Virus record (IMG/VR): IMGVR_UViG_3300021962_000590
Location: 1-25,462 of that record
Reading direction: 5' to 3' (one strand)
Length of the DNA: 25,462 bases
Origin: a virus
Part shown: piece by piece, positions 6,990 through 24,568 of the stretch
Layout of the letters: each line of letters begins with the position of its first letter
Numbering within the stretch: position 1 is the first letter of the stretch
Notes under the pieces: generated by a model
Seen by the model: the letters and a program-made list of their open reading frames with translations, nothing else
Told to the model about the DNA's origin: nothing
Databases searched by the model: none
Made by a program: the position numbers and the translations under genes

Positions 6990-8093
6990 TTAACAGGCTT
7001 TATTAACAGAAGTCTCAAAATAATCTACAATTATTCTCTTTTTTACAGAGGTTCGAGCAAGCTCCATATTTTTTTTCAACAAATCAACTTTTTTGTAGTT
7101 TTCGCTAAACAATGCTTTTAAATTTCTAGCTAGCAATCGCACGCCTTCGGGCGGAACCGCATTTCCAATCTGTCGGCGTATTTCACCAACCGATCCTAAA
7201 AAAACAAACGAATCTGGAAATGATTGAAGTCTTGCTCTTTCGCGATTAGTCAAAGCTCTTAATTCCGGATAATGATATCCCCAAGTTCCTCCTCCACCTG
7301 CCGCAATTAATGTTTTAGCAGGTTCGCTTCTGTGAATTCTTCTATAAATTAGGCTGATCATCCCTTTAACATAATGTGGGTCATCTTTGGGAATGTCAGT
7401 GAAATTTCCTCCCTCTGGAATTTTAGCTAATATCTCTTTCGTGCGTGGCATGATTTTCATATGCTCATTATTGTGTAGTACTTTTTCAACTTCATGTAAA
7501 GCTTCACCAGCCGTAAAATATGGCTTATTAACCTTTGGGCCGTGCGTAGGGGTTGGATGTTCAAAATCAAAACATGTATCGTTTCTTACTCCAACAAATA
7601 ATACTCTTTGTCGAAACTGCGGAATACCGTAATCTGCAAAATTATACAACTTGATGCTAAGTGTATACCCGGGCTGAATGGCTTCAAAGTCGCTTATTAT
7701 TTGCTGTATTGCCTTTCCATTATTAGCACTTAAAATCCCTTTCACATTTTCTGCTACAAAAGCTTTCGGCTTTTTTGCATCAATAAACCTCAAAAACTCT
7801 TTGTATAAACTACCTCTATCACCTTCTAAGCCGGGTCTTTTCCAAATAATTGAAAAATCCTGACAAGGGAATCCCCCAATCACAATATCACATGAAGGCA
7901 CGCTTTTCTCGCAATAAGGATCGATTTCTAAAATACTTCTTCGATCAACTTTTGAATCTTTAAAATTCAGTTCGTAAGTATCAGCAGCCCATTTATTAAA
8001 TTCATTCGAGTAGACAACGTCATAGCCTTCTAAATGAAATCCTAAATCAAGTCCTCCACAACCAGCAAACAGTGAAATAACTTTTGGTTTCAC
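6990..8093 (-). CDS. dcm: DNA (cytosine-5-)-methyltransferase, 367 aa
   Basis: It transfers a methyl group from S-adenosylmethionine to C5 of cytosine in a specific DNA site. Motifs appear in order: I FAGCGGLDLGF (cofactor binding), IV GGFPCQDFS with the catalytic Cys, VI AENVKG, VIII FRQRVLFVG, IX RERARLQSFPD and X RRQIGNAVPP. The target-recognition region lies between VIII and IX (about residues 185-290). The start is GTG at 8093, preceded by AAGGAA. A 45-residue basic C-terminal extension follows motif X. No restriction endonuclease gene is adjacent, so it is probably an orphan enzyme protecting phage DNA from host restriction. The target site cannot be read from sequence. Confidence 0.93.
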   Translation of the reverse strand: MKPKVISLFAGCGGLDLGFHLEGYDVVYSNEFNKWAADTYELNFKDSKVDRRSILEIDPYCEKSVPSCDIVIGGFPCQDFSIIWKRPGLEGDRGSLYKEFLRFIDAKKPKAFVAENVKGILSANNGKAIQQIISDFEAIQPGYTLSIKLYNFADYGIPQFRQRVLFVGVRNDTCFDFEHPTPTHGPKVNKPYFTAGEALHEVEKVLHNNEHMKIMPRTKEILAKIPEGGNFTDIPKDDPHYVKGMISLIYRRIHRSEPAKTLIAAGGGGTWGYHYPELRALTNRERARLQSFPDSFVFLGSVGEIRRQIGNAVPPEGVRLLARNLKALFSENYKKVDLLKKNMELARTSVKKRIIVDYFETSVNKAC

Positions 8094-20714: not shown

Positions 20715-21059
20715 TTAAAGCTTAAGCTTTCTCCAGTCAACTTGAGGCGCATTTATTTTGTGCCTCCAATTACCTGCAATATTTAGTCTATTTCCCTCTT
20801 CTGCACATTTCTCAGAGCAAAATTTCCAGCGCCTGCCTTTGACAATAGTTTTACAAATCAAACATTTCTTGTCAGGTTCATCTAGAATAGTTTTTTTCAT
20901 TTTATTTTGATAAGTACACTTATTACAGATAGTATCATCTCTTCCCATTAGGTGTAAAAAATTAGACGGTTCTTTGTCTACGCTACATTGTGAACAGATC
21001 ACATACACCCCCGGGTAAAATTTATCTAGAAAATAAAATTTTCTGGTGTTACATAGCAA
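20715..21059 (-). CDS. Cys-rich zinc-binding protein on the opposite strand, about 114 aa
   Basis: It interrupts the rightward virion operon in antisense. Two pairs CSQC...CNKC form one likely zinc site (residues about 22-50); a second site is CLIC...CSEKC (about 68-85), the MYM/HNH-style ribbon. After it comes NIAGNWRHKINAP. The start is uncertain: TTG at 21059 gives the full length and a GTG some 17 codons inside is an alternative; no strong ribosome site is seen. The double zinc ribbon resembles homing-endonuclease-like phage genes, which often sit alone between virion genes, but the catalytic histidines cannot be assigned. It is therefore called only as zinc-binding. Confidence 0.6.
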   Translation of the reverse strand: MLCNTRKFYFLDKFYPGVYVICSQCSVDKEPSNFLHLMGRDDTICNKCTYQNKMKKTILDEPDKKCLICKTIVKGRRWKFCSEKCAEEGNRLNIAGNWRHKINAPQVDWRKLKL

Positions 21060-21886: not shown

Positions 21887-22426
21887 ATGACAGTTTCAAT
21901 CGCAACAATGCCTCCACAAATACAACAGAGGTATAACGCTAAATTGTTGTCTACTCCTGAAAGAAATCTTGTTCACATGTTATTTGCAACTCCTGTAGAG
22001 CTTCCAGATAACCAAGGTTTTATCGATAGACAATCTAGATATGATCGCTTAGATCTATTCCCAGTGCCTCTTGATGACGCACAGATTAATCCACCACCAC
22101 AAGCACTAAACCGTGTTGATGTGGATTGTAGAGTGCGTGTTTATGCAACTTATACTGTACTTACACGCCAAGTAACAATCACAAACGAAGATCCAGTTCT
22201 CAATAGCGCTGCAGCCCGTTTAGGCCAAGCACTTAGAGAAACTCAAGACGTACTCGTAAGAGATGCTCTCGAAGCTACTGCATCGGTCATAAACTGTGTG
22301 GGGGGTACAAACGGCGATTTACCAACAGAAATGACGGTAACCGATATTGACGACGTTGTAACAGTACTGCAAAACAACTCTGCGGAATACATTACAAACA
22401 TCGTTGAAGCTGACCTCAAATTCGGT
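21887..22426 (+). CDS. Major capsid protein, exon 1 (N4-gp56-like; residues 1-180)
   Basis: The coat protein of the head. The spliced gene joins six exons: 21887-22426, 22669-22784, 22995-23129, about 23360-23452, about 23682-23754 and about 24515-24568, giving roughly 335 residues. Exon 1 encodes the N-terminal half with blocks I recall from the N4-gp56 capsid family: TYTVLTRQVTITNEDPVLN, LGQALRETQDVLVRDALEAT and the stretch up to EADLKFG. The frame then reads into the intron and stops at 22483. The exon 1/2 junction restores G-T-S-P-I-G in frame. Without splicing only a truncated 198-residue product would be made. Family naming is from memory. Confidence 0.88.
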
Positions 22427-22668
22427 AAAATAAGTGCCGAAATAAAACCTTGGGTAATTGACTTGAAGTGCCTTGCAGCGTAGCAACTGAAGGTTAACAA
22501 GGCGCAAGCAGCTTCAAGCATGCAGCGTGAGAGACTAAACCCTGAGGACCATGTCGAGGATAAGCTCGATATGGTATGTGATAGTCCGAACTCTACGAAT
22601 AAATAAAGGTAGAGAAGCAAACAGAAATGATTTGCTCGCCTAGAAATAGGTTACAAAGTAACAAAATG
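22427..22668 (+). ncRNA. Group I intron 1 in the capsid gene (242 bases)
   Basis: Exon 1 ends TTCGGT, which pairs with the guide GCCGAA at the start of the intron, giving the required U-G pair at the splice site (P1). AAGT just before the guide pairs with ACTT at the start of exon 2 (P10). P7 is GACTA (22533-22537) with TAGTC (22582-22586). Hairpins CTCTAC/GTAGAG, AGCAAA/TTTGCT and CCTA/TAGG follow (P9 region), and the intron ends in G. No protein is encoded. Confidence 0.92.
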
Positions 22669-22784
22669 ACTTCACCGATTGGTGATAGCTATGGATGTAT
22701 GTTATCTACAAGAATGATCCCTGTTTTAAATAATATGACAGGCTTTATTCGTAAGTTTCAATATCCAAGAATTGACCAGACGCT
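22669..22784 (+). CDS. Major capsid protein, exon 2
   Basis: It continues the coat protein in frame from TSPIGDSYGCMLSTRMIPVL through MTGFIRKFQYPRIDQT, ending in codon phase 2 (CT). Unspliced, the frame would run on to a stop at 22839. Confidence 0.88.
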
Positions 22785-22994
22785 AAACTTTGATGGTGTC
22801 TATAAATCTAACCTGATTGAGGTGGAAGCCGTAGCGTAAATACGTCGGTGACACTGCGGAACCTGAAAAGGACCGTAAGAGACTAAGCGGTTAGAGCCGA
22901 AAGGCAAGCGATAGTCCGAACCAATTCGAAAGATTTGGAGAGGGGAATAACAAGACCCTCCGCCTAGCAATAGGTCATAAAAAGTAACAGTTAG
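22785..22994 (+). ncRNA. Group I intron 2 in the capsid gene (210 bases)
   Basis: Exon 2 ends AGACGCT, which pairs with guide GGTGTCT (7 bp with terminal U-G; P1). TGAT before the guide pairs with ATCA at the start of exon 3 (P10). P7 is GACTA (22881-22885) with TAGTC (22912-22916). P9-region hairpins CCAA...TTGG, GAGGG/CCCTC and CCTA/TAGG resemble intron 1, and the intron ends GTAACAGTTAG. Confidence 0.92.
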
Positions 22995-23129
22995 ATCAAC
23001 AGAATGGGGCGGTGTTAACAACGTGCGTTTCTTTGTTTCAGAACAAGGTAGCGTAACCCCAGCGGCTTCTTTGCTTGGTAACGATGTGGCTAACTGCTTC
23101 GTTGCTGCTAAAGAATCGTATAAAGTGGT
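22995..23129 (+). CDS. Major capsid protein, exon 3
   Basis: The junction gives L-S-T-E-W-G-G-V-N-N-V-R-F-F-V-S, matching the usual G-E-x-G-S-V-x-x-x-R-F stretch of this capsid family, then AAKESYKVV. The 5' boundary is firm; the 3' end (23129 or 23130) depends on which U pairs with G in P1 of the next intron. Confidence 0.85.
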
Positions 23130-23359
23130 TCGAGTAATAAGCCCAGGCCACTATAAATCCTTTCTGATCGTCTTAGAGGTCTTAACAGGTAATGCTGAAG
23201 ATAATAAGGGGCAAGCAATCGAAAGATGTGCAGCCTGAGAGAACAAGCGAAAGGACATCGAAAGATGAAGCGATGTTCCGATCCTTATGGAAACATAAGG
23301 AGGCTGGCAGAAATGATCAGCCCGCCTATCGTAAGATAGGTCATAAAGTAACAGCACGG
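23130..23359 (+). ncRNA. Group I intron 3 in the capsid gene (about 230 bases)
   Basis: Exon 3 end AGTGGT pairs with GCCACT (P1). P7 is GAACA (23241-23245) with TGTTC (23274-23278), a compensatory change from introns 1 and 2. Hairpins GCTG/CAGC and CCTATC/GATAGG and the motif AAAGTAACAG follow. The 3' end is less sure: 23354, 23359 and 23384 all keep the exon frame with a suitable 5' site, and no clear P10 was found. Confidence 0.85.
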
Positions 23360-23452
23360 ACACTTTAAGCCTGTAGAGTGTCCGACGTGGCAAGCAGGCG
23401 GTAAGGCTAGATTTATTTATCTGCCTCCTGGGTACAACAATGACCCTTGCAT
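23360..23452 (+). CDS. Major capsid protein, exon 4
   Basis: It encodes HFKPVECPTWQAGGKARFIY then LPPGYNNDPC, keeping the Gly-rich and N-D-P blocks near the C-terminus of this capsid family. The 3' border after GCAT is supported by a 7-bp P1 helix. The first few codons are uncertain. Confidence 0.8.
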
Positions 23453-23681
23453 AAATAAAATTTTGAGTGTGCAAGTAAAACCCGATTTGATTGACTTGGA
23501 AGCCTACAGCGAAAGCCATGGCGACAAGGCGCAAGCAGCGTAAAGCGTGCAGCGTGAGAGCAGTAAGCAATTGGGATCCTTCGGGATATGCGGTACTCCG
23601 ATCCACACAACGAAAGGTGTGGAGGTAAGCTGAGAAGACTTACCCGTTTTTAGCCTGCTGGACGTAACAAACCTCGCTCCG
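23453..23681 (+). ncRNA. Group I intron 4 in the capsid gene (about 229 bases)
   Basis: Exon 4 ends CTTGCAT, which pairs with guide GTGCAAG (7 bp with terminal U-G). P7 is the GAGCAGTA region (23557-23564) with TACTC (23594-23598). The core AAGGCGCAAGCAGC...GCAGCGTGAGAG is nearly the same as in intron 1. The 3' end is placed after G at 23681 because this restores the frame C-M-H-T-A-G-C-S-F-Y; a start of exon 5 at 23676 is also in frame. Confidence 0.82.
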
Positions 23682-23754
23682 GCATACAGCGGGCTGTTCC
23701 TTTTACCAGGGTGAATATGTAAAATTGGCTCTGGGATGGTTTTTGGAGGCTGCA
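23682..23754 (+). CDS. Major capsid protein, exon 5
   Basis: It encodes HTAGCSFYQGEYVKLALGWF then LEAA. The frame meets a stop at 23755-23757, inside intron 5. The exact 3' border is not fixed because no clean P1 pairing was found for the next intron; it lies within about 23735-23756. Confidence 0.7.
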
Positions 23755-24514
23755 TAAGCCAAAAAACTAAAAATTAATCTTCACTGATTAACTTGGACGC
23801 CTAAGGTTATATAGTGACAATATAACTATGGTAACAGGGACGAAGATTATACTTTTTATGATGCAGTGTATTATAATCCTTTAAAAAGGAGGCAATGCAT
23901 GAAGACTTGTAAATTATGTAAGGTAACTAAAGAATATGAACATTTTCCAAAACATAGTTCTTATTCAGATGGATATTACTCCAGATGCAAAGAATGCAAT
24001 TATAGATTGGAAAAAGAATGGAGACAAAACAATCCAGAAAAGAAAAATGAAATACGCACAAGGTATAGACAAAATAATAGGGAAAAAATTCGTGAGCAAG
24101 ATAAACAATTTTATGAAAAAAATTGCGAACGTCTTAGAGAAAAGCAAAAAATTGATAAAATTGAAAACCCTCACAAACATAAAGCCTATAAAGAATATCG
24201 AGTCGCATTATCAAATGGAAAGATTAAACAAACTGATTACTGTCAAATATGTGGCATTAAAAACATGCCTCTTGATGGTCATCATGCAGATTATGAAAAA
24301 CCATTGGAAGTCATTTGGATTTGCAAAAGTTGCCATATGTACATACATAAAAAAATATAATCACGTTGAGAGACTGAGTGTGAGGACTCTTTATAAGAGA
24401 AGCGACAGTCCGATCTTAAATGAAAGTTTAAGAGGGAGATTTGAAGCAGTTTCCCCGCTACTAAAATTGTTAGTAGTCAGTAAACGATGTAAATTGTTGA
24501 AAGTAACAGGTTTG
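23755..24514 (+). ncRNA. Group I intron 5 in the capsid gene, carrying an HNH gene (about 760 bases)
   Basis: The start region GATTAACTTGGACGCC matches introns 1, 2 and 4. P7 is GACTG (24372-24376) with CAGTC (24406-24410), another compensatory pair. P9-type hairpins CTTAAA/TTTAAG and CTACTA/TAGTAG and the end motif AAAGTAACAG follow. The endonuclease gene is inserted ahead of the P7 5' strand, in a P5/P6 loop-like position. Both ends are approximate: P1 and P10 could not be assigned. With its own homing enzyme this is the likely mobile member of the set. Confidence 0.82.
23899..24360 (+). CDS. Intron-encoded HNH homing endonuclease, 153 aa
   Basis: The start at 23899 is chosen because AAGGAGG lies 8 bases before it. 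Cys pairs CKLC and CKEC near the N-terminus form a zinc finger of about 30 residues. A highly charged helical linker follows (residues about 35-105). The C-terminal HNH domain reads CQICG, then DGHHADYEKPLEVIWICKSCHMYIHKK, split here into the catalytic DGHHADYEKP and the metal-binding CKSCH. Such enzymes nick or cut intronless alleles and so spread their intron. It lies wholly inside intron 5. Its AT-rich, Lys/Asn-rich codon use differs from the capsid exons, as expected for an invading gene. Confidence 0.9.
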   Translation: MKTCKLCKVTKEYEHFPKHSSYSDGYYSRCKECNYRLEKEWRQNNPEKKNEIRTRYRQNNREKIREQDKQFYEKNCERLREKQKIDKIENPHKHKAYKEYRVALSNGKIKQTDYCQICGIKNMPLDGHHADYEKPLEVIWICKSCHMYIHKKI

Positions 24515-24568
24515 CAATGCATTACAAACGATCTTTGGATCCAAAACCTAAGATCAACAGGAATTTAA
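24515..24568 (+). CDS. Major capsid protein, exon 6 (C-terminus)
   Basis: It encodes CITNDLWIQNLRSTGI and the stop at 24566-24568. The ITNDxWIxNLRST ending is one I recall from capsids of this kind and follows naturally on LGWFLEAA of exon 5. The 5' border is approximate. The stop overlaps the ribosome site of the next gene. Confidence 0.7.
   Translation, partial: QCITNDLWIQNLRSTGI

Follow-up and report, generated by a model that had tools for sequence, protein, structure and literature searches.

A phage major capsid gene divided by five group I introns whose in-frame readthrough ends resemble the SsrA tag

Group I introns in phage genes, including those for structural proteins, have precedents. 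In a crAss-like phage of the Zeta group (OLRF01000054) the capsid open reading frame (ORF) has already been published as lying in five fragments, with group I intron-type domains in three of the four gaps; the accessible part of that report does not analyse readthrough tails (Yutin 2021, PMC7886860). For the group I introns in the capsid gene of LittleE and a tail gene of BAKA, one intron to each gene, splicing is documented by reverse transcription PCR, and the accessible text makes no mention of a tail (Pope 2013, PMC3706429), though in both genes the reading from the upstream exon into the intron ends in AAA. Lactococcus phage Tuc2009 has a single group I intron in its major head protein gene, and the group I introns td and nrdB of phage T4 sit in nucleotide-metabolism genes and lack Ala-Ala ends (readthrough ends FLG-stop in td and SFA in nrdB). 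Here we describe a 25,462-nt stretch of viral DNA (IMG/VR record IMGVR_UViG_3300021962_000590, positions 1 to 25,462; hereafter the window) from a lineage other than that of the crAss-like phage, in which the major capsid gene (21887-24568) consists of six in-frame exons with five group I introns, hence five gaps rather than four, between them. We think it likely that all five are spliced and that each encodes, in frame with its upstream exon, an SsrA-like tail through which fragments of capsid protein translated from unspliced RNA would be removed; splicing, recognition by ClpXP and benefit to the phage are what we infer from the sequence.

That the interrupted gene encodes an N4-gp56-family major capsid protein, as a sequence-only reading of the window had claimed, is clear from the joined exons (948 nt, 315 residues), which match TIGR04387 (N4-gp56 major capsid) over residues 7-307 with 120.6 bits (E 8.6e-35; curated cut-off 60), exon 1 by itself reaching 77.6 bits, and phrog_1357 ('major head protein') with E 9e-24. 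Among the closest IMG/VR relatives of the exon 1 product most are uninterrupted ORFs of 315 residues, and one of them (L002), 98% identical across the exon 1 part, has no introns at sites 1-3. An intronless homologue aligns to the window as six blocks covering residues 1-315 in order, and because such relatives run continuously along the joined exons, the check that the earlier reading had proposed for its spliced protein, the junctions are fixed. They were also found by a splice-aware dynamic program that is blind to intron structure and uses the capsid profile while mildly favouring insertions that follow a U and end in G; its five introns are 22427-22668, 22785-22994, 23131-23387, 23453-23675 and 23713-24514. 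The exons below rest on both the intronless-homologue and the splice-aware alignment.

21887-22426, plus strand: capsid exon 1 (residues 1-180), last base U
22669-22784, plus strand: capsid exon 2
22995-23130, plus strand: capsid exon 3
23388-23452, plus strand: capsid exon 4
23676-23712, plus strand: capsid exon 5
24515-24568, plus strand: capsid exon 6, including the stop codon

A search for a second capsid-like match elsewhere in the window found none. Two structural approaches contributed little, since an AlphaFold model of an intronless relative (L003) has a mean pLDDT of 32 and is unusable and a PDB sequence search gave no meaningful match.

The insertions themselves carry the elements expected of group I introns (listed below; all five are called by covariance model, splice-aware alignment and P1/P10 pairing).

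22427-22668, plus strand: group I intron 1, 242 nt; P1 guide 22436-22441, P3 22448-22455, P7 22531-22537 with 22582-22587
22785-22994, plus strand: group I intron 2, 210 nt; P1 guide 22795-22801, P3 22807-22814 with 22889-22895, P7 22879-22885 with 22912-22917
23131-23387, plus strand: group I intron 3, 257 nt; P1 guide 23146-23152, P3 23158-23165 with 23249-23255, P7 23239-23245 with 23274-23279
23453-23675, plus strand: group I intron 4, 223 nt if it ends in C, which keeps the frame, or 224 nt and out of frame by one with the canonical terminal G at 23676; P1 guide 23469-23475, P7 23558-23565 with 23594-23599
23713-24514, plus strand: group I intron 5, 802 nt; P1 guide 23728-23734, P3 23778-23785 with 24380-24386, P7 24370-24376 with 24406-24411
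23866-24360, plus strand: endonuclease ORF of intron 5, endonuclease VII/HNH-like (phrog_2340 endonuclease, E 1.3e-28)

The P1 and P10 helices that the sequence-only reading had written out for introns 1 and 2 are there, and the observation extends to all five, each with a P1 of 6-7 bp and U.G at -1 plus a P10 of 3-5 bp. When the five cores are aligned with 13 from relatives, P3, P4, P6 and P7 pair in each of the 18, with most of the pairs varying on both strands; 98.8% of cells are paired and double changes number 94 against 23.7 after shuffling, the P3-P7 pseudoknot included, in an alignment that leans towards structure because loops were cut by hand, whereas slid controls of the same alignment keep 42-50% paired. 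The G-C pair of the guanosine-binding site in P7 is invariant (18/18) with the adjacent bulged base present. An extra unpaired base within P7 beside this site (GAGCAGUA/UACUCC) is seen in the window at 23558-23565 and in introns of three relatives (L064, L079, L005). Together with the continuous exon alignment and the P1/P10 helices, the covarying core bears out the earlier claim of five group I introns in this gene, for which self-splicing is predicted; that head production would then depend on splicing follows from the sequence.

Only intron 5 contains an endonuclease ORF, which is placed in the P6 loop (listed start GTG, with an ATG at about 23899), and at every intron site some relatives are intronless. 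An intron-encoded endonuclease alongside intronless alleles is what characterises mobile (homing) introns, and both are present here; cleavage by the enzyme is a prediction.

The same reading had expected a match to the Rfam Intron_gpI model (RF00028), and here it failed, as neither the window (E<=10) nor the relatives gave one. This null is a limitation of the model, which also misses the T4 td intron and scored T4 nrdB below threshold, and about which a Bastillevirinae study voices a similar complaint (PMC11878797); a match to it is a detection aid, not a defining group I feature. A covariance model of our own (R1), built from 16 of these window and relative introns, matches all five window introns, intron 5 in two halves, with E values between 3e-48 and 7e-25, and detects no further ones in the window. 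As the window introns belong to the model, these matches speak for consistency and the absence of others only, and the covariation test is weightier. R1 gives the LittleE intron 30.5 bits, T4 nrdB a short weak match and td no match.

What the sequence-only reading had passed over is the way in which each intron is read by a ribosome that runs on from the 5' exon. We call the peptide read in frame from that exon to the first stop within the intron its tail; in the window this frame stays open for 14-35 codons and ends as follows.

22481-22483, plus strand: stop of the intron 1 tail, ...DLKCLAA-stop, in P5
22837-22839, plus strand: stop of the intron 2 tail, ...EVEAVA-stop, in P5
23236-23238, plus strand: stop of the intron 3 tail, ...AIERCAA-stop, at the 3' strand of P6
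23541-23543, plus strand: stop of the intron 4 tail, ...DKAQAA-stop, in the P6 loop
23755-23757, plus strand: stop of the intron 5 tail, ...GWFLEAA-stop, before P3

All five tails end in alanine, four of them in Ala-Ala and one in Val-Ala, at differing positions in the RNA fold. We compared the three frames in 162 distinct introns from related capsid genes; Ala-Ala-stop occurs 81, 0 and 1 times in frames 0, +1 and +2, and Ala-stop 107, 11 and 7 times; grouped into 39 clusters, these introns give a majority for Ala-Ala in 17, 0 and 0 clusters. Introns of all three insertion phases (0, 1 and 2) show the bias, so the frame has been adjusted site by site. Leu predominates at position -3, and several tails end in YALAA or YAIAA. 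Upstream ORFs in other contigs end in alanine in 12/20 cases compared with 2/40 in other frames (FALAA, FALVA and QAKAA are examples), and the readthrough ends of LittleE and BAKA are ...GWNSVATAAA-stop and ...SDDLAAAAA-stop. As a sequence pattern, then, the in-frame alanine tail is well supported.

The E. coli SsrA tag ends in YALAA, whose last two alanines are what ClpXP chiefly recognises, and these five residues by themselves are enough for GFP-YALAA to be degraded (PMC7652416). The window family shares with such degrons the C-terminal Ala-Ala, often as LAA and sometimes as exactly YALAA; unlike the SsrA tag, which is added by tmRNA, its tails are encoded in cis by the intron and reached by normal termination. 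We envisage that five mobile group I introns, all of one family, spread into the major capsid gene and that guanosine-initiated self-splicing would release them from the messenger RNA, the 5' site being set by P1 and its guide and the 3' site by P10 and the terminal G, to yield the 315-residue protein. Bacterial ribosomes begin translation before splicing finishes, and because of this the introns may have been tuned to an open frame that closes with Ala-Ala (or Val-Ala) and a stop. Since the tail resembles the tmRNA/SsrA tag, ClpXP-type proteases would degrade the capsid fragments that unspliced RNA gives rise to, and head assembly would be spared from poisoning by these, which would fit a need to clear pieces of an assembly protein able to poison a shell. 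We regard a role of the alanine tail as an SsrA/ClpXP degron as moderately supported. A search of the accessible literature found no earlier description of intron-encoded degrons, although such an absence is not proof.

Several points weigh against the degron proposal, beginning with the fact that the whole case is built from sequence data. About half of the wider intron set lacks an Ala-Ala end and a third lacks a final Ala, in part because junctions are uncertain in distant relatives; the introns at capsid codon 102 have no tail of their own, and the capsid intron of Tuc2009 reads to ...PAWS-stop, with no alanine tail. The counts over 162 introns are not independent events because the introns are related, and the SsrA tag used for comparison is that of E. 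coli, which may not be the host's. LittleE and BAKA are GC-rich mycobacteriophages, in which alanine runs are commoner. Finally, if the terminal-G rule is applied, junction 4 does not restore the frame (see below).

The rival that holds up best, though we consider it improbable, sees ordinary spliced introns in which Ala-Ala was selected for some purpose other than proteolysis, for example efficient termination that shields the ribozyme core. The stops do always fall before or at the edge of P7, which would keep ribosomes off the core. Termination as such, however, needs no particular residue pair, let alone a bias that reaches Leu at -3 and literal YALAA/YAIAA, and the members of this intron family in ribonucleotide reductase genes terminate without it, ending in GCNP or GTNP with no alanine.

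Junction 4 raises the question whether the gene is functional at all. The clean, frame-restoring junctions that the sequence-only reading had reported for introns 1 and 2 hold, and introns 3 and 5 likewise combine a terminal G with a restored frame; in intron 4 the two conflict by one base, a problem that the earlier reading had not raised. Intron-bearing relatives (L005, L043, L049) read ...ATG/GTTAAGA here, i.e. terminal G and then exon G, whereas the window reads ...CTCG/CTCC(GG) with a single G, one short. The guide pairs such that U 23452 is the last base before the 5' site, so that splicing at the terminal G would shift the frame and replace the C-terminal end; only an intron ending in C would preserve the frame. 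Sequencing error and mutation are both candidate causes of the missing G; a search of the collection contigs for a second copy of the window's junction 4 found none apart from one chance match on an unrelated contig. One might conclude that the capsid gene is a decayed pseudogene and that head protein comes from another copy or a helper phage. We rate this still lower than selection for termination, given that the six exons are otherwise intact and near functional relatives, pairing is preserved in all five cores, four of the junctions are flawless, the window lacks another capsid-like match and an assembly error explains junction 4 equally well.

The window has full introns only; its relatives add a second kind of insertion, 30-59 nt long, in their capsid genes, too short for a catalytic core yet equipped with P1, P10 and terminal G. 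At capsid codon 80 an insertion of 38-59 nt is present in 11 close-clade loci, and exactly those 11 have a full intron at codon 102. Codon-80 mini-inserts were noted in L155 (4963-5000), L166, L199, L212, L236, L276, L277, L279, L280 and L282, and further in L291, L294, L296, L304, L311, L314 and L327, always with the codon-102 full intron in the same gene. A second N4-type capsid family has similar mini-inserts at three more sites (L293, L297-L300, L305, L309, L310, L313, L315, L317, L318, L321, L322, L324, L325, L330-L333, L336). In L303, L307, L312, L326, L329 and L337 what is apparently the same site has additional sequence before the guide that looks coding; this may be a mini-intron with an endonuclease ORF inside. 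Among 38 mini-inserts collected, all have a P1 with U.G that is 6 bp or longer and 36 a P10 of 3 bp or longer, a combination found in 0.7% of shuffles; P10 averages 4.8 bp with the insert's own exon against 0.4 bp with exons of other sites. In-frame Ala-Ala-stop is present in 32/38 (one is not assessable, the contig start being too near) and in 0/76 control frames. For inserts of 38 or 41 nt the frame continues into the next exon, where 9/10 read TGCCGCGTAA, which out of frame gives CAA-stop (one-letter residues) by way of synonymous codons; intronless alleles use these codons in 0/86 cases. A hairpin between insert and exon could be an alternative cause of this codon choice. Since the codon-102 introns have no tail of their own, the upstream mini-insert may supply it.

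Our preferred reading is that the mini-inserts would be excised in trans by the ribozyme of the neighbouring intron. Whether there is a two-part system of full introns and core-less mini-introns cut by a neighbour's ribozyme, both encoding an in-frame SsrA-like degron, is a question on which we are evenly divided. Ribosome bypass was rejected for the mini-inserts, because in those inspected the take-off triplet does not match the landing triplet. The nearest precedent is the small putative group I introns (63-75 nt) of Phialophora, which likewise keep P1/P10 and pairing to the 3' exon with most of the core missing; these lie in fungal rRNA genes and one was reported to self-splice in vitro, whereas the phage inserts are 30-59 nt and lie in capsid genes beside full introns (PMC3160393).

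The mini-inserts also bear on the idea that Ala-Ala-stop is an RNA by-product, conserved GCAGCRUAA (P5) or GCAGCCUGA (P6) happening to encode it. Motifs of this kind are indeed found repeatedly in the P5 and P6 elements of these related introns. A by-product would, however, be expected in all three frames rather than at 81/0/1, the Ala-Ala-stops of the window sit in differing structural elements, and both core-less mini-inserts and exon codons outside the introns show the same ending, so that we see this explanation as close to refuted. Removal otherwise than by RNA splicing (inteins, ribosome bypass, DNA-level processing) is the least credible of all, for although splicing is argued here from sequence, every insertion holds in-frame stops, P1, P10 and a covarying catalytic core, and the accessible part of the LittleE/BAKA report has introns in comparable genes spliced (PMC3706429).

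Five introns in one capsid gene, called exceptional by the sequence-only reading, are indeed at the top of the range without being unique. Over 182 capsid loci we count none in 87, one in 46, two in 24, three in 11, four in 11 and five in 3 (the window, L165 and L282, the last with four plus a mini-insert), numbers that are not population frequencies as they come from two differently biased samples (exon 1 similarity; exact intron motifs) and include some repeat views of one contig and, for distant relatives, some short calls that are uncertain. Such relatives also have insertions of 26-40 nt near codons 85-95 and 115, which may be inserted residues and were put aside. Within the close clade, full introns occupy 17 sites. 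One locus (L195, 3-198 and 1029-1206) has two capsid fragments of the same profile region (about 121-185), possibly an exon duplication.

Scanned regardless of gene, an exact 24-nt intron motif occurs in at least 120 viral contig stretches. Among the matches listed most are in head genes (79/119 in the window's capsid family by profile; further ones in capsid proteins assigned to phrog_283, 267 and 1328), with a few in portal and ribonucleotide reductase genes. This search is biased to one clade because the motif was derived from that clade's capsid introns, not obviously towards unrelated capsid families; judged by these matches, the same intron family recurs in several of the latter. Members without alanine tail lie in the ribonucleotide reductase gene of Roseobacter phage CRP-118 (L342, 3005-3206) and in a reductase-like gene of Nitratidesulfovibrio phage SRB7757 (L343, 4014-4220), by eye anaerobic-reductase-like, with readthrough ending WAR-stop. 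Two of the relatives come from contigs that are binned into metagenome-assembled genomes of Verrucomicrobia and Acidobacteria; these may be mis-binned viral contigs and we claim no host.

How phages tolerate introns in their most expressed structural gene, with translation running before splicing, is an open problem to which an intron-encoded degron, if true, would be a direct answer. LittleE and BAKA, culturable M. smegmatis phages whose introns are known to splice and carry alanine tails, bring it within reach. Mini-introns spliced in trans would let one ribozyme serve several introns per gene and widen the notion of a group I intron. As the Rfam model largely overlooks the family, many viral metagenomes probably contain capsid genes that are split by introns and wrongly annotated as fragments.

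Elsewhere in the window, just upstream of the capsid operon and on the opposite strand (20715-21059, minus), lies an ORF for a cysteine-rich protein of 114 residues, zinc-binding by its look, with nothing above the Pfam cut-off and nothing in PHROGs. At 6990-8093, minus strand, is a gene for a C-5 cytosine DNA methylase, which matches Pfam PF00145 with E 2e-74.

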